Part shown: piece by piece, positions 18,259-37,830 of the stretch
How the letters are laid out: each line of letters starts with the position of its first letter
Numbering within the stretch: the first letter of the stretch is position 1
Assembly (NCBI GenBank): GCA_964036195.1
Contig: OZ038451.1
Span: 17,446,747 to 17,510,746, forward strand
Reading direction: 5' to 3'
DNA from: Sphaerolaimus hirsutus
Lineage: Eukaryota > Nematoda > Chromadorea > Monhysterida > Sphaerolaimidae
DNA length: 64,000 bases
Notes under the pieces: generated by a model
The model's database searches: none
Told to the model about the DNA's origin: nothing
The model's input: the letters and a program-made list of their open reading frames with translations, nothing else
Position numbers and translations under genes: made by a program

Positions 18259-18712
18259 CTGCATGTTTTGTATGGATACATTAGTGATTTTGAAGGTTAT
18301 GGCGGTGGCGGGTGGGGACATTATGAAAACAGCAACCAATTTTGTTCATTTGATGTTGCAAATAATTTTGGCTTGTTGCCAAAAAACCCATCTCAACGTT
18401 ATCAGGATGCAGGAGCTTCAAAATGTTGTAAAATCAATCAAAATTCATTCAAACTAACAAAAATATTCTGTCCAGTAGATGCATGTCGCTTGGCATAGGG
18501 AATGTTCAAACGGAATAAAACATTAGTGCAAAAATTTCCTTTTTTGTTAGTTGCTCCTTTTCGCAGTATTTTTGAAAAACCGGTTTTCAATTTGCCCGGT
18601 ATTTATGTCACTGTGAAATTGTCTTATCTGCTGCGAACAGATGGTGACATTGTGGGCGTTGTTGTGCTGTCGTTTTTTTAGCATTGTTGTGTTGTGCTGT
18701 CGTCGTTTTGCA

Positions 18713-20407
18713 GTGTCTGGAAGTCCTGTAAAAGGCCCTGTAAAATGTCAAATGTCATGCAAAGTGTCAAAAGTCATGGAAAATGCCTGCAAAATGGTGA
18801 CTCGGCTGCCATTTTGCAGGGCATTTTACATGACTTTTGACACTTTGCATGACATTTGACATTATACAGGGCATTTTACAGTGTCTGGAAGTCCTGTAAC
18901 AGACCCTGTAAGATGTCAAATGTCATGCAAAGTGTCAAAAGTCATGGAAAATGCCTGCAAAATGGTGACTCGGTTGCCATTTTGTTGGGCATTTCCCATG
19001 ACTTTTGACACTTTGCATGACATTTCACATTTTACAGGGCATTTTACAGTGTCTGGAAGTCCTGTAAAAGGCCCTGTAAAATGTCAAATGTCATGCAAAG
19101 TGTCAAAAGTCATGGAAAATGCCTGCAAAATGGTGACTTGGTTGCCATTTTGCAGGGCATTTTACATGACTTTTGACACTTTGCATGACATTTCACAATT
19201 TACAGGGCATTTTACAGTGTCTGGAAGTCCTGTAAAATGCCCTGTAAAATGTCAAATGTCATGCAAAGTGTCAAAAGTCGTGGAAAATGCCTGCAAAATG
19301 GTGACTCGGTTGCCACTTTGCAGGGCATTTTACATGACTTTTGACACTTTGCATGACATTTGACATTATACAGGGCATTTTACAGTGTCTGGAAGTCCTG
19401 TAAAAGGCCCTGTAAAATGTCAAATGTCATGCAAAGTGTCAAAAGTCATGGAAAATGCCTGCAAAATGGTGACTTGGTTGCCATTTTGCTGGGCATTTCC
19501 CATGACTTTTGACACTTTGCATGACATTTCACATTTTACAGGGCATTTTACAGTGTCTGGAAGTCCTGTAAAAGGCCCTGTAAAATGTCAAATGTCATGC
19601 AAAGTGTCAAAAGTCATGGAAAATGCCTGCAAAATGGTGACTCGGTTGCCATTTTGCAGGGCATTTTACATGACTTTTGACACTTTGCATGACATTTGAC
19701 ATTATACAGGGCATTTTACAGTGTCTGGAAGTCCTGTAAAAGGCCCTGTAAAATGTCAAATGTCATGCAAAGTGTCAAAAGTCATGGAAAATGCCTGCAA
19801 AATGGTGACTCGGTTGCCATTTTGCTGGGCATTTCCCATGACTTTTGACACTTTGCATGACATTTCACATTTTACAGGGCATTTTACAGTGTCTGGAAGT
19901 CCTGTAAAAGGCCCTGTAAAATGTCAAATGTCATGCAAAGTGTCAAAAGTCATGGAAAATGCCTGCAAAATGGTGACTCGGTTGCCATTTTGCAGGGCAT
20001 TTTACATGACTTTTGACACTTTGCATGACATTTGACATTATACAGGGCATTTTACAGTGTCTGGAAGTCCTGTAAAAGGCCCTGTAAAATGTCAAATGTC
20101 ATGCAAAGTGTCAAAAGTCATGGAAAATGCCTGCAAAATGGTGACTCGGTTGCCATTTTGCTGGGCATTTCCCATGACTTTTGACACTTTGCATGACATT
20201 TCACATTTTACAGGGCATTTTACAGTGTCTGGAAGTCCTGTAAAAGGCCCTGTAAAATGTCAAATGTCATGCAAAGTGTCAAAAGTCATGGAAAATGCCT
20301 GCAAAATGGTGACCCGGTTGCCATTTTGCAGGGCATTTTACATGACTTTTGACACTTTGCATGACATTTGACATTATACAGGGCATTTTACAGTGTCTGG
20401 AAGTCCT
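18713..20407. repeat. 168-bp satellite, ten units, two-unit higher-order periodicity
   Basis: GTGTCTGGAAGTCC recurs every 168 bp from 18,713 to 20,393. Each unit is itself a near palindrome. Units alternate between CATTTGACATTATACAG and CATTTCACATTTTACAG versions, giving a 336-bp higher-order repeat. The same sequence, in single copy with CCCAGACCCTG ends, forms an intron of mevalonate kinase (33,958-34,141) and one of the nested gene. The 80-160-residue open frames here are repeat artefacts. Confidence 0.93.
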
Positions 20408-20579
20408 TGGAAAAATAAAAAGCGACTTTGGAAACCATTTTCACTTTCAAAACGGAAAAGTGTCAGAAATTTGAAGCAAAACCTGAAACCTGAAATCTTA
20501 ACAAAAATGGACGAAAATCAAAGTAATCGAGCATTTTAATATCAGAGCATCAAACATTCCGCGGAACCCCAAAATTATT

Positions 20580-26002: not shown

Positions 26003-26864
26003 GTTGAGATAGTTATGGGTGCTCAGTGCATTCCTGTGCATTCCTCAATGTGACGGTGTCCACCCATAGCTGGAATTGGGGTGGCTGTTACGGGTGCCCA
26101 CCAGACTTTTGTGTCATTCCATTCTGTTGTGCATATGTAATTGCAAAATTTTTATGTCAATTTGACCATGTATTTATGTAATTTTTATCAATATATTTAT
26201 GATAAATCCTTGAATAAGTCCCCCCCAAATACCCCCCCCCTCGAATAAGTCCCCTCAAAATCACTGACAAAAAATACCCCCCCCCCAAGGGGACTTATTT
26301 GAGGATATACAGTATCTATATGTAAGTATCTGATGGCATGTTCAGAAATATTTATTTTACATGTTGAAATACTGGGTCAAATTGGCATAATGAATTCATA
26401 CATCACAAATCCAACCTCAAAAATGGAATCCACTGATTTTTAAGTGTTTTTTTCCAGTGGTGGAATAAAAATTCGAAAATTCCGAAAGAATCCGAAAATT
26501 CGTAAATATTATCGAATTTTTGAATCTTTTTTTGCCATCGTTAGTGACATGACACTCCGCACGCGCACTTTGTCTCACGTTGGAAGCGTGCCAATAATAA
26601 TAAAACCCGGCGATTGTTGTGAACATTCATCTTTCAATTTCATTTGAAAATTCATTTTTGTGTGTATGTTTAGTGTTTTTGTGTATATGAAAAACCGGCA
26701 ATGAATTTTTCATCTTTTATGCGTATCGTTGAGACGCTTCCAGCGTGAACCCCGTGCGCAAGGTGTAATGTCACGGAGTACATATGCAAAACGGAAGCGC
26801 ACAACAAAACGATCCCATCCCGCAAAGCTGTGATATTTGGCGCGCAGCATCACCCCAGGTGCCA

Positions 26865-26995
26865 CTCCCATACCGTGTAAAATGTAAAATGTCATACAAA
26901 GTGTCAAAAGTTATGTAAAACGCCCTGTAAACGGGCGAACCCGTTTGCAATTTTACAGGGCATTCTACACATCATTTACAGGGTCTGGAAGTGAC
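26865..26995. mobile_element. Solo copy of the intron-forming/satellite element
   Basis: CCCCAG|GTGCCACTCCC at the left, internal TGTAAAATGTAAAATGTCAT palindrome, and TTACAGGGTCTGGAAGTGA|CCCCAG at the right. A perfect 6-bp direct repeat CCCCAG brackets the element. It keeps GT and AG at its borders although no exon is evident on either side. Confidence 0.75.
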
Positions 26996-27903
26996 CCCAG
27001 CAAAGCGGCTTCACACGGGATGAAAACGCTTCACGGCACAAGTATTTTGCATTTCGGTTTTGCACATGCAAATTCGCATGAACCAGCGTATGTATGTATT
27101 CAAGTAAAATGACTAATCAGCTCTCGTGATAATTACAACTGCATGGACATAAAAACGATTCGTGTAACTGCATGGAGCGCTAAGCAATCGGGAACGATTC
27201 GCGTATTTACGGCGGAGCAGATGACAGTGTATCCAATGACGACAACTTGAGCATGCATCTAAAGGACCTAGTAAATAAAGCAGCACTCGTAGTCTCTTCT
27301 ACCTGCCAACTGCGCGACTCATTTAAGTTAGCCGAGACTAGGTCTGGTGGATAATCATAATCAACGATAAATACTGTTTACAAGAATGCTTCTGTGCACC
27401 TGGAAGCGCCCTGGTTGTTTGGCAATCAATGGCTCTATTGGCCCCGCGAACACTAGTTTTCAACAGAAATTTCGAGAACTCATAATCAGCTATGGAAGTG
27501 TTTGAGTTTTCTAGAATCAGTCACTTTTAATTTCTGTCAACTGCAGTTGACGGACGCCTGATTCTAGAAAACTCAAATGCATTCAAAGCTAGAGTTTTGA
27601 AGAGTTATAAGTTCTAACAGAGAGTTTACAAAATTTTGGTTGAAAACTAGTGTGTGCGGGCACAATAATATGTCTTTGAAAATTCCCAAAGAAATAAAGA
27701 TTGTCTGTTTCTACGTATTTGCTTGTGTCCGCAATTAGCACTTTTTATCGAATTCATCTATTTCAAAGTCATACCAAAGGTGAACCAATGTTACGCAGAC
27801 AACAGTTTGTTCTAACACCGGCTCATCGTAGGAAACACAATGGAAGAAAAGCGGGTGTGCGGGTGGGCGGAGCCAGTTGCACAGTGACTAAGCGACACAA
27901 ACA

Positions 27904-30900
27904 TCATTTGGGGCGTCTGGCGGGCGCGGCGCCGGCGGCGGGGGGCGGGGGCTGGTCGCGGAACAAGTCGGGTCGGCGGGGGTGCGCGATGACCCCGTTG
28001 CCGCCGAGCACCGGCTGCCACAGCTCGTAGCCCAGCTTGGTCAGCTCGCCGCGGATCATCTCCAGCACCGTGGCGGACGTGTCTGCGTTGGACCGGGTTT
28101 TACACATGTTCAAGGCACTTTCGTGAACACTCTATTCGCGTATGTGTGGGTGGGGGGGGGGTTACCGTCTAGACGCTCATGCTATAATTCAACCCCGACT
28201 CCGCCCCGCCAACCATCCATCCCGAGGTGAAATTTTCGACTTCTACCCCACCCCCCCCCCCAAATCGCGCAGCTATGTGGTGCAAATTTTTACCAATTAC
28301 CGTATTGCTTATAATATAAATGTGCCGTTCTATTCTTTTGTCAAATCTTTTACATGCCGTCCTATTGGAGGTGCCCTTCTATTTTTACCAATTTTTCATA
28401 AATTTTTCAATTGAACAAAGTTATCAGCTAAGACGGATACTGGCGCCGGCAGCCTTGAAATTTCACCATATTATTTACTGTAAACGCAGCTGTGCGTGCA
28501 TGTAAAATGTACTGTGTGATTTAAGTCTTGAAAAAATATATAAATATATGAGAAAATCATTAAGCCAATGATCAAACGCTAACAATCCAAAATAGCGATA
28601 TATCGGTATACTCGGCGGACCGCAAAGTATGCGTATAAAATTACTTATGTCTTAATAAAAAATGAGCGAGCCGAGTTCTTACAATGTGCGCACTTTCACA
28701 AAAATGAAAAAACATTCAAATTGAAAAAGGCGGGGTCGCGCAAAAGCGACGAAATGTTTTTTTTCGGGAACTTTTTTGATGTTATAACCGGTGACGTCAT
28801 GGTGGTGTTTCCTTCTGAAAAATGCATAGCTAAATGGCAAAGATGGACACTGCGGTATAGTAACCACGCACACTACTTTACGACGGGAATTTATCAACTA
28901 CTTTTCCAAACTGATTTCCAGCAAAGGTGTCCGATAAATTTCCATCGTTAACTAGTTTGCAGTTGATCTACCCCCGTTAATGTTGTATTTATATTTAATT
29001 TGTTCAGTTCATTGTAATATATCATCATCACTTCACGCTCACATCAGTTTCGGTAAAATCAGTGTGCATCACGCTTTCGTTTTCTAGGCAATATACAGGT
29101 ACAACAGCTAAATGTTTTCCTCAGTTTTGTTCGAAATTGGGACATTCTTTCATGGTTAAGCACTTGTCTTTGTTGTAATAATTCTGTAAAGTAAACACAA
29201 AATGAATACAAACAGGCTCTTGGTTAGCAGACCAATGAAGATTTACTTTTATCAGTCGACTGTGCCGTTTGAGTTTTGTCCAGACTCTCGCCTGAGCTCT
29301 GGAGCCAGTTCCACAAATTGAGAAGTGCGAAGTAAAATTGCTAATGCGAAGGAAAAATACTTTTATTTTTATTTTGTTTACTTCACTTTTGCCAATTTAC
29401 TTGCCATTTCACTTCACTTTCGCCATTTTACTTCGCTTTTGCCATTTTACTTCTCAATTCTCAATTTGCGGAACTGGCACCTGTTGTGTTCTATCCATCT
29501 TAGCTGACTCTATAGATCGTGGTTGCACCTTTGTTCTCTCCAGCATGGTATTGGCCGCATCGAGTGCCCTTTCTAGGCTGCTTTTAATGGCATCCGTCTG
29601 GTGTGTCAGGTTGCTCCATGCCTGGAGCACGGGGCACCACGTGAAAACAATGCTCAGTGACAAATGACAAGAACCTGACAACTTTTTCAGCCCGCTCCAC
29701 CACAAAACCAACGATATTATGTTCCTTTTGATTCTGTTCATCAGTGGGTGGGTTGGCGCGCGGGTGACTTCGTTGGGACTTGTCAGCATCAACTCCGCTC
29801 AGCAGCTTGTCCCCGTCGCGAGGGAACGCATTGGAAATGCTTATAATGGTGTCGCTGGCCACGTTGCGAATGGGGTCGTCGTAAGGCACGGACTTGGTCG
29901 TGTCTTCCGACTGCGGTTCGCTGCACGCCTTCGACGCGGGCCTGGTGGCAGCGTTTGACTTCTTCCTGCCCTTGGCCTGCTGTCGCTTGAAGGCGCCCGG
30001 CGTGCCCATGAGCTTGATGCCTCCCCTGCGGTTTATGGCGTCCTTGAATCTGCCCATCTCGTCGGTGATGTTCATCGAGGCGGACGTGTCGGCCGACGTG
30101 ACCGTGGTGCCGAGCGTGTGCTTGCTAGTCGCCGTGGTTCCTCCCGCGCCTCCCGGTGCGACGAGCGTCGCGAGCTTGAACAAAGCTGAGGCACTTCCGC
30201 GCTGAACAGTCATGTTGACGTAGGCCTACTAGGCAACAGGGATAACCCGCCAGTCATGAAGACCCGCCAATCATGTATTTCTCCCACTATTCATCTATAC
30301 CCGCTAGGCTAGTCATCTATGCCTCTAATTGGGGGGGGGGGCACATGATTAGCGTGGTGTTTTGCGGCAGTGGGTTTACATGATCAGTAGAGTACATAGA
30401 ACAAAACTGCAGTACATGTGCACTAGCATTGTTTTTGTAGCTCTTTTGATGAGATCGTGAGTGCACATGCACTGCAACCTGCACTATGTACTCTAATAAT
30501 CATGTAAACCTGCTGCTGCTAATCCCCCAGGTAGGGGTATAGATGACTAGCGGGTATAGATGAATAGCGGGTATACATACAGGTGATGAATACAGGCGCA
30601 GGGTCGGCATGACATTAACCACATTTTCAAAAAGTCCGATCTTCAGAAAATTGTTCCGCGAAAAGATCATCTGAATGCCCCGCTTGAACAAGCGCGCAAC
30701 GCAAGCCGAACCACCAGTAGAAGTGGCGCCTCCGGGGGACGTGGCTCCATCAGCGTCTGAATGCTCAGACTTCTGAGTGCGCGACTTGGCCACGCCGCGA
30801 CTTTCTGGCGTCTTTTTTGTCTTCTTCCGTCGAATCTGATGACAGGCAGAGTGCGACACACGCGTTATTTCTTTCGTTTTTAATATGAGCAAGTCCTACT

Positions 30901-33900
30901 ATTAATGGCCTTAACACAAGAAAAAATGGGGATTAAAACGAATCCGGCAAATTTTCGTGAGGGTCTTTTCTGTAACAATTGTTCTTGTGCAACTATGCCA
31001 CTTCGCCATCTCAAAGTGTCACGAAAATTTCTGCCGCACCTTCAAGCAGACCACAAAGTTTCTCGCAATGACACACCTTGTGCCAGCCGGCACTTTTGTG
31101 TCTGCTGCGACTTTTCTCATGAGGAGTACGTGCCTCATGAGCGACCATATCCCGAACGCGCTGCCGCGACCCAACTCGAATCCCTCTGGTGCCAGTCCCA
31201 GACCCTGTAAAGTGTAAAAGACACTGTACAGAGACATGTAAAAAACCCTGTAAAATGTCAGGTGTCATGTAAAAGACCCTGCAAAGTGTCATATGTATCC
31301 AAATCTTATCCTATTGTATCCAAAAAAACAACAACAAGATTTGGATACGATACACTTCACAGGGTCTATTACATGACATTTGACACTTTACATGGTCTTC
31401 AACATGACACATTATATTTACAGGGTCTTTACCACTTTACAGGGTCTGGGACTGCCTCCTGATCTTTGTCTTTGTCGCCCCGTGCGCCAACTGTGTCTGG
31501 TTGCGATTGCGACCGACCGATTTACAGGCTTGATTGAATTTCTGCTGGTAGTCTGAAGAATTTGACTTCGGCGCTCCGCTCATACTAAGCGCAGCGGTTT
31601 AGTGGAAATTTTTTCGGGGCCAATTTGCAAATGGTAGATGGCGGCGTGGGATCGCGCGCGTGTCAATTTAGTACGTGATTAGAGGACGTCGCGTGCATGG
31701 AAGCGAGTGCGCTGTATACGGCAACAACAATGCAAAAAAACAACCTAAAAAGTCCACCCAAAACATTTTACACGCACACACAGCAGCCACTTCCCTTTAC
31801 CAATCAACAACCTACTGACCAAAAAAAAGCCCCCAAAAAACCGACCGGGTTTCAAGAAAGCATACACGGACCCGCCGCCGCCGGCGCCGGTCATCTTGGG
31901 GTGTATGCCGTAGCGCGCGAGCAGCGTGCTGATCTGGTCGATCTTGGGGTGGCCGACGCCCAAGGCGATCAGCAACTGGTTGTTCATGCGGCAAAGATCC
32001 TGTAGGGGTGGGGGGACCATTTGTGGGAGGGTGTCGATTGTAAGCAGGCAAGTAGATTGTCATAGGATCTTAGATAAGGATGAGTATGCAAAATAAAGTT
32101 TTAAGGATCGATAGATAGCGATGGTTTGCAATAGTTACTGGGGTGATTGCTGTCAGATTACTGTATTTTAGGGCAGAAAATAACTATGATTTCATCAGAA
32201 TCTCATCATAATCAATCACCAGTTATTGTGAAAATCTACACAACACATTATGTAGGTATTCAGTGTAGTTGTAGATAAACACTTGCAAATACAAACAACA
32301 ACGCTGATATTTACTGTACGAAACTTGAAATTCACAGTGAGGCCACATCATGTCGTATTAAATAGGTAGTTATTTCAAAGCGAGGGGGTATTCGAGGTTA
32401 TGTGGTTGTGAATAATTATTTCATGTTGTCGTGTTTTGCTTCAGTGGGAAGATGTTTGTCTAGGTGGGCCACTCAGTTTATGGACTATTTGAAAAAAGCC
32501 ACCGCACACGGGTTAAACGATTAAATATTTAAATAGTTATGTGTAGCCGCTTGTGCTACATGAGCGGCGCGTGCAACAAAACTATTGAACAAAAAATGTC
32601 AAATGAATTCGGCAAGAAATGCCGCGACTTAACGAAAGAAAAAGACGACAAGTCGGATGTAATGCAGCGATGGGCCCACACACGCTAGTTGACATCAAAA
32701 TTCGTGTCACCGTAATTTAGGCTAATTATGTGATTTCAACTTCACTATGTGATAGAGCATAGGTTATTTTATATCGTGGCACTTAATTTTTATTGTTTCT
32801 GTTAAGCGTGATACTTTTAAATTGTTTTGTGTTATTTAGTTGACATTCAGTTGACATTTGTTCGCGATGTCAACTAGTGTGTGGGCATCGAGTGTAACGA
32901 CTCCTGCAACGTCAAGTGCACACACGTTTAGCTTGGCGAAAACGTTGACAGTGGCGTCGCCGGCGAGTGTCTGCGGGTCGGTGTGATTGTGCAGCGTGGG
33001 CGACCGCCGGCCGGCGCCCAGCGACGTTACCGACAAGCCGCCAGTGGAACGAGGCGTGTGCTGCGCGCTGCCCGCCCCCTGCGGCCGCTGCGACGCCTGC
33101 ACAGACGAAATAAAAACGCACCTCAAAAGCTACGGCGAAGAGAACATATCGTGGATAAGTTTGCCACCCCACCGCAAATCTATGCGCCGAAAAAACAAAG
33201 CAAATAATGAGTGTAACTCATAGACAACTAGGTACGTTTTACAAACACACGCTCTAAATGTGTTCGCAGCAAAATGTCGGCTATACGCACTGAATAGAGT
33301 CTAATCAAAGGCTACCGGTTAAACGCGCATGCAACTGCAATGAAGAGTTGTTAAAAGTACCGAAAATTTTCAAAGTATGCGTATGCGTAAAGTATTTTGT
33401 TTTTACACACCCCGAGTACAGAAAGCGTAAAGTAAAACATATTTACTTTTACTTGTGAGTAAATGAGAGTAAAATACTTTTTATACCCAGAAAGTGTAAA
33501 TGCCAGTTTTTTCCCAGGAAAGCGTAAAAGTGAGTAAATTTACCTTTTCTTTCTGGAAAAAGCATTTATGATTACCCTGGACAACAAAAATGTTTTCTTT
33601 CTATTTATCAGTATTCTTTATGAAAAGCAGGGGTCTCGAATGGCAAAAATACTTTTTCTGTACCCCAAAAAATTACTCTACTATACTCGAGTACTCTCAA
33701 AGAGTAAGCGTACGGGCGAGTACAGATACTTTTTTCAAAGTGTGCGTGTGCGTATTTACTAGGTACTCGAGTATGCGTACTTTCTGAGTAACAGTCAATA
33801 CGCATTAACAACTGTGCTGCAGTGGACAAGTTCGTAGCGCACCGCAGCGACGCACCTGCAGCTTCTCGTGCTCGTCCTCTGTGCAGCCGGGGGCGGCCGC

Positions 33901-36900
33901 GTTGCTCGAGCTGTTCGAGTCGGCCGCGGTGCCGCTCGTGCCCGCCAACATGGCAGACTGGGGCTATCCCAGACCCTGTAAAATCCCCTGTAAAATGTCA
34001 AAGGTCATGCAGTGTCAAAAGTCATGTAAAATGCCCTGCAAAATCGGAGTTGCCATTTTGCAGGGCATTTTACATGGCTTTTAACATTTTAAATGACATT
34101 TGACATTTTACAGGAATCATTACAGGGTCTGGGATTGGCACCTGGTGGTTCAAGCCGCCCGTCGAGTTGGTCAAGGGCTCGCCGCCCGCCGCCGCTGGCC
34201 GCCAGCTGTCAGTTGAGTTCAGCTCGCCCGAGCGACTGAGGATGCAGATGGCCTCGCGCGACACGCCGTCGATCGCGTTGAATATCGGCTCCACCACGTC
34301 GGGGTACTGCGAAAAAATGCAGGTCATCCCGTTGGGAAAGTAGAAACCACGGGCGGGTCGATTTGATCATTCGTGGATGTTTTTAACAAGTGAAAACGCC
34401 ATTCGATTTTTGGGAGATCTGAATTTAAAATTAGATTAATTAGAATAATGAATTAATTGAATTACAATAACAAACCTTCTTCAACTTGTCCTTCACTGTT
34501 GAAACCATTCTGCTCGTGTTCCGCTCTACTTTCGAGTTGACCAAAATAACTTTCAAATCAGGTAAACTGCAAGTGAACGACACAAATTGAGCAGTTTGTA
34601 AAAATAACGGAAAAACGGACGATTCGATGGCAAACGTTACTCACTTCTTGATGTGCTGTATCCGAGCGCCGGGTTTGAAGCTGGCCAGACCACCTGTAGT
34701 GTTTGTTGTGAGCTTAAATATCAAACACTACAGCCTCAGCGATATATTTACAGGCACGCAAATGCAGGTATTAAAGTGCACCGAGAAAATGAAAGTGCAA
34801 ACTAGCCGTAAGTACAGACGGCCGCGTCTATGCCGGACGCTCGACCGTGGATCAGGCTCTCGGCGGCCACCGCCCACCGCCGTATCATGTCCAAGCCCGC
34901 TTCGTCCCACGTTAAACATGTTTCTCCACCTGGATATTGAAACAATTTGCAAGTGACCTAAAAAGATATACCGCTAATCAACGAATAAGACCCCCTTGAT
35001 TACCCCCCTGTTCGCCAGGTGCGGGGAAAAACACCCCCTCCTGAATAAATTCCTCCCTATGTGATGGGTGGTAAACATGCTGAAAAAATTATTTAAAAAA
35101 CTATCGATCTAGTCAGATGCGAATAAGCTAAGTTTGGAAAAGCTACGTTGGGGGGCTGATTAATCGAATGTAAATGCAGTGCAGTGCGTGAAACGAAAAA
35201 TACAAAAGAATGTTAGCTTACGCAGTGTGACATACCTACATGCCTTTTTCGCGTTTTCCGAAGAAAAATAACTCCCCCTCGAATAACCCTCCTGAATGAA
35301 ACCCCGAAAAGCTCTGACGAAAAATAACTCGCTGGGGTCTTATTTGAGGACTTATTGTACGCAAGAAACATCACTCCACCAACCGGGGTCATTCTCGGTG
35401 CAGGCGACCACGTTGGGTGCGGGGATCATGCCGGCCGCTTGGAGCAAACTGGCGGCCACGCACACGCAGTACGCGCCCGACGAGCCCAGGCCGACGCACG
35501 AGGGAAGCTTGAATTGCACGGTCACCTTCACTGCGGGCAGGTCGCTGCGACCAGCGGACAGTGTGAGCAGTATATTGGTGTATTGAACAGCCGAGAAACA
35601 CAATCAAAAGCATCATTAGAAACTTGTGCACGGCGCTGTCGATAACCAGATAATCAACGGAAATTATCGAGATTCAACAGGGTCCCACATAAAAATTAGA
35701 GCCGCGGTGACTCATCCAAAACAGAAATATTTTTTGATGGAATGCAAAAGCTAAAAAATTGACAAAGAATCGAAATTATCAGCTTTTGAGAAGGTAAATG
35801 TTTTACAGAGTACGCGACCTACAGTGGTTCATCAGCAACCTTTTCGGCAGTAACGGGCCAACTCAGCTAACCGTTTGCGCTGCGCCACGCCGAGCAGCAG
35901 GTACCAGAAGGCGAGCACGGCGAGGTGCTGCACGCCGCACTGGTCCTCGCAGGCGCCCGACAGCTTCCTGGCCACGGGCACGACCACCTCCAGCTGCGGC
36001 GGCGCGCCGTCCTCGTCGCCGAAGATCGGCGGCACGCTGTCGCCCAATCTGCGGCCAGTTGCATGTGGATATGAGCGTCAGATAGGCGCCACACACGCTG
36101 GATGGGAACTGAATTCATGTCAACTAAATTTTAATTAATTACCGTATTTCCTCGAAATACCCCCCTCAAAATCGGCACTATGAATTTGTGGTCCGGGAAA
36201 TGCATAACAGATGTTCAAAACACTTACTGTGTTACGTTAGAACATCGTTTATACCATCTACATCCTTATATAAGGCTGTAAAAACTTATAAATTGGTTAT
36301 TGTTGCATTTTTCACGTTTTTCTCTCAAAATTCTCACTCTGAAACAATCACCCCCCGGGGGGTATTTAGAGAAAATACGGTATGCGATTTCAAGTTTCCT
36401 GTGTGATAAATCATAGGTAGGTTGTTTATTTTTAATTGTAAGACTCAAGTTTCAGTGTTATCGTGTTATTTAGCTGACTTTCAGTTGACACGAATTTGCC
36501 ATGTCAACTAGCGTGTGGGGGGCGATGCGATACATCCGCATTATTTAAAAAGATTTAATAAAATGTGTCCGTAAAAACTAGCAGGACGCAAGCACTAATT
36601 TATTCAGTCATTTGTGCAACGTAAATAGCACAACACCCGCCGTGTGGAAACGGCCCGGGACAGTGAAAGGTGACCACCCTTCAAAATAGCCGATCCATAC
36701 AAACCTCTCGGCGGCGCGCATGAGATCCTTCCTCAGCCAGGTCTTCTCCACGCCCAGGTCTGGCAGGTTCAAGTAAATCACCCCGTCGGCGGACGTGTAC
36801 AGCGACACGTAGGTGCGCAAGTCGATCGCTCCGGCCACGGCCGTCTGAGCGGCGCAGTGCGGCTGGTCGAAAGACACGCGAGTGAGTTGTGCAACGGCGA

Positions 36901-37830
36901 GCTTACCCTGCCGTAGACGACCGCGTGCTCGCCGAACAGTATGATCTTGCCGGGCGCGCTCAGGAACAGCCCGTTGGTGTAGCTGCCGCCCGTGCTGCCC
37001 GACGACGGCGCTGGAGACCCGTCCATCGAACTCCGGCCTGTATGTCCACTGTGCATTTGTATTTTCAAATCAGTTTGGCATAATCGTAACCTAGACCGTG
37101 CACACACTAGTTGAAAACCACACCCAATGTCAACTGGTTCCGATCCCAATTCAAAGCTTGATGGCGAGCCGGCGAACGACATTCAAATGCAATAGTGTTG
37201 AATCATGTTCCAAATAGCAGTAGTGTTGAAAAAATATTGCGGTAAATGAAGGAACAATGTAAATTACAAGGCCGGCATGAGGTATATGTGTATACAACAA
37301 TGCGTAGTGCTACTCGTCAGCAAGCTTTGAATTGGAATCCGAACCAGTTGACATTTGGTGTCGTTGTCAACCAATGTGTGCAGAGCCTTAGCAAAGGAAT
37401 TTGCCAACCCACGCGTGCGGCATTATTCACATGTACTCACGGTATACTACAGTTACTTTACACCCTGCACGCGTGGTTCACGCTGGAAACGTGCCAACGA
37501 TTTTTTAAGAATGCTATTTTCATAAAACGTTGAAAAAAGTCATCTCTGTTATAACGCTATATCTTAACTTATTCACAACAATGATATTTTTACCTTATAC
37601 ACAAAAATCGCATGCTTTATCATCATTGGCACGCTTCCAACGTGAGACATAAATGAGTGCGAGTGCAGAGTATCATGTTCGCTGAGTATACACAAAATAC
37701 GAAACATAACGGTTACGCTCTAAATTCGTCATTCACTAGAGCAATAACCATTTTGCGGCAGCTTGTTTTGCACACGCCTACACACACCAAAACACGCGTT
37801 ACAGTATGGCTCACCGGTGGCGGCGTCCAT
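27904..37830 (-). CDS. MVK: Mevalonate kinase
   Basis: ATP-dependent phosphorylation of mevalonate, an early isoprenoid/sterol step. Exons: 37830-37815, 37037-36907, 36844-36705, 36048-35872, 35544-35384, 34929-34807, 34693-34645, 34566-34476, 34306-34142, 33957-33856, 33096-32926, 31999-31846, 28082-27904 (TGA); all phases agree. Numbering from the Met at 37026 (543 aa): APGKIILFGEHAVVYG with Lys27 and Glu33; GHMP glycine loop LPSCVGLGSS at 159-168; Glu223 and catalytic Asp234 in HGRASGIDAAV; motif 3 KMTGAGGGGS at 468-477. An in-frame Met one exon upstream (37830) adds nine residues. Human MVK is 396 aa; the excess is mainly a ~110-residue Ser/Gly/Ala/Pro-rich insertion (about 315-425) and a Pro-rich C-terminus. 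The intron at 34,694-34,806 is GC-AG; the one at 33,958-34,141 is a transposon. The last intron holds another gene. Confidence 0.93.
29224..31583 (-). CDS. Unidentified nested gene in the last MVK intron, six exons, ~395 aa
   Basis: Same strand as MVK. Exons: A 31583 to about 31456, B 31185-31077, C 30835-30620, D 30201-29683, E 29621-29481, F 29298-29224 (TAA); every junction keeps frame. The protein starts MSGAPKSNSSDYQQKF, then a strongly basic stretch (QRVRDMVAHE, IRRKKTKKTPESRG), a Gly/Thr/Ser-rich region, LFKRGIQMIFSRNNFLK, INRRGGIKLMGTPGAFKRQQ, an acidic/polar segment, an amphipathic helix (TDAIKSSLERALDAANTMLE) and a Ser/Thr/Lys tail ending SSLVC. Exons are GC-rich like MVK. A basic, possibly nuclear or chromatin/RNA-associated protein is suggested by composition only; I do not recognise it. 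The donor of exon A is ambiguous (GA, GC or GT dinucleotides at 31458, 31455 and 31452, or GTAAAG further on, all in the same phase). Introns A/B and E/F are TIR repeats. Confidence 0.68.
29299..29480. mobile_element. TIR element forming intron E/F of the nested gene (182 bp)
   Basis: Read on the minus strand, the intron is GTGCCAGTTCCGCAAATTGA...CAATTTGTGGAACTGGCTCCAG: its two ends are inverted copies, so the element fills the whole intron. Internal AAGTAAAATGGCAAAAGCGA repeats recur at 59,840-59,925 in a related fragment ending GCGGAACTGGC. Confidence 0.82.
30280..30580. mobile_element. TIR element in nested-gene intron C/D
   Basis: ATTCATCTATACCCGCTAG near 30,289 is inverted as CTAGCGGGTATAGATGAAT near 30,566, with G/C runs inside. 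It occupies most of the 418-bp intron. Confidence 0.65.
31186..31455. mobile_element. CCCAGACCCTGTAAA element forming intron A/B of the nested gene
   Basis: On the plus strand GTGCCAGTCCCAGACCCTG opens and CAGGGTCTGGGACTGCCTCC closes the element as inverted copies; inside are the CTGTAAAATGTCA/TGACATTTGACAC words of the 168-bp satellite. Coding sequence abuts both ends. The expected GTGCCA donor is changed to GAGGCAG on the gene's strand, so the active donor needs transcript data. Confidence 0.75.
32669..32890. mobile_element. CACACTAGTTGAC-type MITE in MVK intron
   Basis: GATGGGCCCACACACGCTAG left; GTCAACTAGTGTGTGGGCAT right. Lies in the intron between MVK exons 33096-32926 and 31999-31846. 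Confidence 0.72.
33345..33825. mobile_element. TIR element with GTAAAGTA-type arrays in MVK intron
   Basis: GAGTTGTTAAAAGTACC left and GCATTAACAACTGTGC right, with many AAAGTAAA/GAGTA words inside. A related copy is at 61,430-61,920 (GAGTTGTTCAAATC to TTTTAACAACTGTGCC). Confidence 0.6.
33958..34141. mobile_element. CCCAGACCCTGTAA element forming an entire MVK intron (184 bp)
   Basis: On the gene strand: CACCAG|GTGCCAATCCCAGACCCTG...CAGGGTCTGGGATAGCCCCAG|TCTGCC. The element is palindromic from splice site to splice site and matches the satellite unit at 18.7-20.4 kb. The donor GT is the first dinucleotide of the element; the acceptor CAG lies in a near-duplicate of the upstream exon end (CACCAG versus CCCCAG), as expected of a target duplication. 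Phase 0; it splits the low-complexity insertion of the enzyme. Confidence 0.9.
34968..35357. mobile_element. ACCGTATTTCC-type MITE filling most of an MVK intron
   Basis: CGAATAAGACCCCCTTGATT left; GGGTCTTATTTGAGGACTTA right. Its right end is about 25 bp from the donor of exon 35544-35384. Confidence 0.65.
36141..36381. mobile_element. ACCGTATTTCC-type MITE in MVK intron
   Basis: TTACCGTATTTCCTCGAAAT to TATTTAGAGAAAATACGGTA. Beside it, at 36,490-36,515, is a one-sided CTAGCGTGTGGGG end of another MITE. Confidence 0.75.
37099..37386. mobile_element. CACACTAGTTGA-type MITE in MVK 5' intron
   Basis: GCACACACTAGTTGAAAACC left; GTTGTCAACCAATGTGTGC right. Confidence 0.68.
37440..37690. mobile_element. 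TATACTC/GAGTATA element
   Basis: Near-identical to 15,537-15,785: 'ACTTTACACC...cgctggaa.cgtgccaacga' left arm and 'TTGGCACGCTTCCAACGTGA...' right arm. A related, rearranged copy is at 26,530-26,790. Confidence 0.7.

Follow-up and report, generated by a model that had tools for sequence, protein, structure and literature searches.

A 184-bp intron of the mevalonate kinase (MVK) gene of the nematode Sphaerolaimus hirsutus is very probably an introner. The reading that we prefer, with a probability of about 0.86, is that a palindromic non-autonomous transposon entered an exon where the sequence resembled CCWGG, that a CAG was duplicated on insertion and that the spliceosome now removes the element. 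The intron was found in a 64,000-nucleotide stretch of DNA (the window), and the claim draws on the arrangement of the sequence there and on related copies elsewhere in the genome.

The MVK gene is located on the minus strand of the window. Recognised exon pieces extend over 27979–36975, the first at 36975–36907 and the last at about 28071–27979, and the ends of the exons were placed partly by eye. The protein joined from these pieces has 2891 matches with E ≤ 0.001 among 7993 candidates scored, and the named top matches, among the best 120 of the 2891, are nematode mevalonate kinases. MVK from Brugia malayi is 67% identical over 96% of the query and that from C. elegans is 62% identical, while the Branchiostoma and mammal MVK proteins among the matches listed reach just 34–36%. 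By these matches alone the host would be placed among the nematodes. A preliminary description of this DNA had named the host gene as a conserved MVK, and the exons around the element, which match nematode MVK, bear this out. It had also placed the intron in a low-complexity insert. The site does lie within a variable linker, but the linker is not peculiar to this species, as it varies in the query and in all nine aligned MVK relatives. Elsewhere in the gene an intron at about 34806–34695, which separates a piece with CTYG at its end from one that opens with GGLASF, has by eye an apparent GC donor (TACG^GCTAGT; here and below a caret marks a border or junction).

On the minus strand, the exon upstream of the element (34142–34306, YPDVVEPIFNAIDG...GGLNHQ) ends with ...AACCACCAG at 34142, and coding resumes with TCTGCC... 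at 33957 in the downstream exon (33856–33957, SAMLAGTSG...DEHEKLQ). Both exons were placed by exon joining and alignment. The interval between them, 34141–33958, is a GT...AG intron that reads ...CACCAG^GTGCCAATCCCAGACCC ... GGGTCTGGGATAGCCCCAG^TCTGCC.... The letters given in the preliminary description and the borders that it named, CACCAG before the donor and CCCCAG at the end, are confirmed on this strand, and the 184 bp from the donor (GTGCCA) to the acceptor (CCCCAG) form a near-palindrome. The call as an intron is based on the frame of the exons and on the stop in the retained reading. When the element is retained it adds VPIPDPVMIPVKCQMSFKMLKAM and then a stop codon; when it is removed LNHQ and SAMLAGTSG are joined in phase 0. 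From these frames we infer that the element is removed by splicing. The left CAG of the putative target duplication, at the end of the upstream exon, occupies 34142–34144, and the right CAG, which would be the source of the acceptor AG, occupies 33958–33960. Both were assigned from the CWG pattern of the family. Another AG, also in frame, precedes the acceptor by six bases (GATAG^CCCCAG). Past CAG^GTG the donor, GTGCCA, fits the donor consensus poorly.

The near-palindromic body of the element was located at 33966–34135 by inverted-repeat detection and folding. Its outer arms are 43 nt long and 86% complementary, and its inner arms are 32 nt long and 94% complementary. The 184-nt intron RNA is predicted to form a single hairpin of −107.7 kcal/mol; 200 dinucleotide shuffles average −41.46 (z −15.05), and none of them folded as well.

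The element family and its copies in other genes

A genome-wide search for the ends of the element was carried out on an assembly of 348 Mb in 762 contigs. The exact 20-mer end motif CCWGGTGCCANTCCCAGACC occurs 2267 times, 1172 in forward and 1095 in reverse orientation, and its reversed control is absent in both. In a first look at the genome 40 of 2719 candidates were scored, and the matches listed, with the query excluded, are 82–88% identical. Many similar copies of the element are thus dispersed in the genome, as they are for introners. The 40 copies compared (L001 and L009–L047) share, with some variation, the ends CC[W]G^GTGCCANTCCC...GGGANTGCCCC^C[W]G. On the left, WG has CC before it in 35 of these copies, and on the right the triplet has G after it in 25. 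From the outside inward, the element starts with GGGGCA at the right end and with GTGCCA at the left. The family is a high-copy miniature inverted-repeat transposon (MITE) and is non-autonomous.

Within the window the end motif, allowing up to 3 mismatches, is found 15 times including the two ends of the MVK element, where 0 are expected. Ten of the 15 fall in a tandem array at 18706–20414, which repeat analysis resolves into about ten 168-bp units from the same palindromic family, a MITE-derived satellite. End motifs identify a further copy on the plus strand at 26859–27000 with CAG on both sides, and a longer relative of 273 bp at 31189–31461, also on the plus strand, which has CTG on both sides and lies between two MVK exons. 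A second introner-like element, which differs in its body and has its ends in common with the MVK element, is found on the minus strand at 29299–29480 (CAACAG^GTGCCAGTTCC...GGAACTGGCTCCAG^). Its removal leaves MDRTQQ^SSGESLDK...LVC in frame up to a stop codon, and its retention introduces stops. The 22-mer end of this second family has 264 exact copies in the genome and 0 in the control. The joined peptide has no Pfam match, and the gene at this position is called solely from its open frame. No Rfam match at the gathering score was obtained within the window. At 198–2853, on the minus strand, there are open frames that resemble by eye a Polinton-like family B DNA polymerase.

Copies of the MVK-type element interrupt unrelated coding exons, and the frame is restored when they are removed. 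The flanks of copies were joined in silico and 30 sense peptides were tested against Pfam. A Pfam match runs across the junction in 15 of the 30; these copies were picked by likeness or nearness to MVK-like copies and partly for a protein-like peptide, thus the fraction is not a genome-wide estimate of genic copies. None of the antisense joined peptides made from ten of the same copies has any Pfam match. The interrupted domains are a Lig_chan glutamate receptor (L009), an innexin (L025), adh_short (L034), filament (L041), RhoGAP (L037), trypsin (L020), GDI/RabGDI (L022), Myb (L029), ZP-N (L013), PIP49_C (L026), SNF/SLC6 (L035:4180), a zinc finger (L033:4350) and SDF/SLC1 (L044:3995), together with a second zinc finger (L033), in which the stretches that clearly span the junction are below the Pfam cut-offs, and a weak MFS match below the cut-off (L015). 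In three more peptides a domain lies next to the junction (L038, L038:4503 with LDQ^NDNAP, and L017). The other 12 sense peptides gave no Pfam match; L046 is among them and is by eye an SLC12 transporter (NLGTLVGVYLPTIQHIFGV). At both L033 and L038 two copies on the same strand lie close together, apparently within a single zinc-finger gene and a single cadherin gene, respectively.

A probable CWG target duplication, an empty site and candidate transposases

The triplets on the left and right of the element were compared in three sets of copies. Among the 40 best copies the pair is CAG/CAG in 25, CTG or TTG/CTG in 7 and CTG/CAG in 4, and CAG/TAG, CAG/CGTAG, CAG/GAG and CCG/CTG occur once each. 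Copies met by chance in the window and in the fetched loci gave 8 CAG/CAG, 3 CTG/CTG, 1 CAG/CTG and 2 CTG/CAG; this count, from 32 rows, omits mirror hits, the repeated MVK copy, unreadable right ends and other triplets (for example L044:3995, CAG/CTAG). A gene-blind sample consisted of 20 C1 copies taken in list order, 14 of which have a right end, accepted at up to 4 mismatches, within 421 bp. These are 5 CAG/CAG, 3 CTG/CTG, 2 CAG/CTG, 3 CTG/CAG and 1 other, and one of the CTG/CAG copies is L018, which was counted once in the totals. Over all classed copies there are 38 CAG/CAG, 13 CTG/CTG, 8 CTG/CAG and 3 CAG/CTG. The W base therefore agrees between the two sides in 51 of 62 copies (Fisher p 8e-6, or 4e-5 when 4 segmental duplicates are removed). 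Among the first 100 places listed for the exact motif W is A in 54 and T in 46 (p 0.48), and no bias was seen.

We read this pattern as a 3-bp CWG duplication within a CCWGG-like target, with W mismatched more often than expected, although the gene-blind sample by itself does not show it (agreement in 8 of 13, p 0.59, not significant). A longer target duplication of 6–8 bp, suggested by the CCCCAG-like flanks, was considered and dropped, because in the 40 copies CC is preceded by a variable base on the left and mostly by C on the right. Together the CWG duplication and the CCWGG target suggest a transposase of the PIF/Harbinger type (PHIS, NuwaI-like), which probably acted in trans. It is also conceivable, if unlikely, that the element is an introner of another superfamily and that the CWG flank belongs partly to the element, an account that overlaps with the preferred one on the introner claim. 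The near constancy of CWG on both sides would fit this, as would the disagreement of W in 11 of the 62 classed pairs and the result for the gene-blind sample. The association of left and right W in the whole set of classed copies argues against it, and so does the difference between the left and right bases that precede CC. An empty paralogous site with a single CAG, described below, also favours a duplicated target; the transposase loci examined, in which no matching transposase was found, speak for the other superfamily.

The empty site comes from a Harbinger-like gene (L049), which has 13 copies, itself included, that are 97–100% identical over the first 4.67 kb. On the reverse strand of L049, at about 1127–1324, there is a 195-bp palindrome of the introner type (CTG^GTGGCAATCC...GATTGCCCCCAG^) within the transposase coding sequence, and without it the frame runs on as DDESYPL^DDSSDED. 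A paralog, located at C1:25982575-25986137, can be aligned on either side of the insert with 8 bp between the aligned parts, and is open through DVENDEQDDSSDEDSADND. It has a single CAG, identical to the right-hand triplet of the filled site, whose left flank has diverged to CTG. Since the empty paralog has CAG, the left target copy is the one that has changed in L049. In the more distant L048 family the corresponding part is, by eye, in one open frame. Judged from this alignment, the paralogous pair shows the gain, or the precise loss, of the element in a transposase gene, and it is the one comparable site at which a precise absence was found.

There are 163 matches to PF13359 in the genome. 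PHIS elements carry genes for a transposase and a Myb/SANT protein between their ends. An autonomous element with the ends of the family was not found at three Harbinger-type loci. L048, from an abundant PF13359 Harbinger family, was rejected as the mobilising partner as it has no such ends in 5.4 kb. L049 is probably not the partner either: it finishes on the right at GTGTGGGGCCATTGG or slightly before that, and 8 kb of sequence did not extend to its left end. L050 has no full match to the family ends.

The left and right triplets also bear on how the acceptor arises. The right end supplies AG in 13 of the 15 genic copies with a junction-spanning Pfam match. In the remaining two, the glutamate receptor exon of L009 (SSYTANL^AAFLTVERM) and the zinc-finger exon of L033 (RKDHL^AEHVRVMH), the right end is CTG and not AG, and the exon is open. 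An inspection by hand of other AG/GT splice options for these two copies gave no convincing in-frame one. They diverge from the majority consensus by 3.7% (L009) and 7.6% (L033), so copies that lack AG are not obviously younger than the others. In the innexin (L025, FTDA^WEQYTENYCW) and the SLC6 transporter (L035:4180, NAMP^WPTLWAILFF) the left triplet contributes to a Trp codon within the Pfam match. The target was therefore CCTGG and the right copy is expected to be CTG, but CAG is observed. Coding copies, taken as the Pfam-spanning copies plus L046 by eye and with L049 left out, include 5 CTG/CAG and 0 CAG/CTG, compared to 3 and 3 for the others (p 0.18). This suggests, from small numbers, that the acceptor is selected after insertion, through a change of T to A in the target copy on the right.

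Probable origin of the intron and relation to known introners

The proposal that an element made this intron in MVK is supported by the copies with the same ends throughout the genome, many of them in conserved exons and in the spliceable orientation, and by the paralogous empty site. The preliminary description had further noted that introners form introns when the element provides one splice site and the target duplication provides the other, and this agrees with a donor GT borne by the element and an acceptor AG borne by the target. Insertion into the exon at a CCWGG-like target would have duplicated the CAG. The GT of the left terminus, directly after the target CAG, would then create the donor CAG^GTG, and the CCCC of the right terminus followed by the second CAG would create the acceptor, in which the C-rich 3′ end is from the element and the AG is from the target. 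A G-to-T difference at the second base of the left end (GTGCCA compared to GGGGCA) would make the donor. Because the donor is from the element and the AG is from the duplicated target, removal at the RNA level would restore the original frame without a scar. The sequence CC[A]G^G also matches the consensus of exons where they border introns, the proto-splice site. As the CC[W]GG target includes the exon consensus CAG^G, about half of the sense insertions, those in which W is A on the coding strand, would be ready for splicing.

Transposons are common inside introns, and the element could in principle have filled or replaced an old, ordinary MVK intron whose former sequence was lost. This is very unlikely, as the intron holds no sequence outside the element, whose borders coincide with donor and acceptor, and this exact fit is repeated in unrelated exons. 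Least probable of all is an unspliced, disruptive insertion in an MVK gene that is broken or polymorphic here: two genic copies elsewhere do lack AG, but the MVK copy is the most diverged of the 40 compared (8.9% from the majority consensus, range 2.7–8.9%) and yet nothing is broken in its donor, its acceptor or the frames of the two exons beside it.

That introners arise from DNA transposons is established (Gozashti et al. 2022, PMC9860276). The survey reports introners from just two animal groups, and no word starting with 'nematod' occurs in its main text. Like the introners described there, the MVK element belongs to a repeated inverted-repeat family that would form introns in many genes, and like those of Chrysochromulina (PMC9860276) it carries the 5′ site and co-opts the 3′ site. 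It differs from the surveyed introners in its nematode host and in its apparent 3-bp CWG duplication with a palindromic CCWGG target. The introners of Amoebophrya (PMC7789003) are likewise described as hairpin-forming with inverted repeats, and have direct repeats of 3–5 nt over the exon borders; they are non-canonical, in contrast to the present family, in which most genic copies are GT...AG. Non-canonical splicing in tunicates is treated in PMC13326754.

The NuwaI group of PHIS transposons is defined by CWG duplications and is reported from animals only (PMC4482050). The account covers 16 genomes, with no nematode, and gives terminal inverted repeats of 12–61 bp that usually start with GGG. 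The present family shares with NuwaI the CWG flanks, an animal host and one terminus that starts with GGGG, and the 43-nt outer arms of the MVK copy, with ends GGGGCA and GTGCCA, compare with the 12–61 bp of NuwaI (PMC4482050). It differs from the group as described (PMC4482050) in that its other terminus starts with GTGCC, that it is non-autonomous and that no transposase with the family ends was found at the three loci. Harbinger3_DR, which inserts into AAACACCWGGTCTTT (PMC3016246), has a similar palindromic CCWGG target, and the Tourist MITE mPing (PMC2836001) has a 3-bp duplication and is a short element moved in trans. Neither is described in these sources as forming introns. A search of the main text of open-access journal papers, for nematodes those from 2022 onward, found no nematode or Harbinger introner.

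For 168 intron gains in Caenorhabditis, a 2022 nematode study could identify no source (PMC9169325). New introns in animals are mostly of unknown origin, and here an element, its target, the gene and an empty site are visible in one nematode genome that contains thousands of copies of the family. A target preference that equals the exon consensus at introns would offer a simple reason why this type of transposon is prone to become an introner. As a tentative and rather doubtful extension, a Harbinger-type transposon with a proto-splice-site target may be making introns on a large scale in this genome, with the CTG copies that lack AG tolerated, either by hairpin-aided GT...TG removal or by survival until a T-to-A change gives AG, so that stages of intron birth coexist. 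With copies both with and without AG at hand, the step from insertion to spliceable intron becomes testable. If the preferred reading is true, the MVK element family would illustrate one route to new introns in animals.
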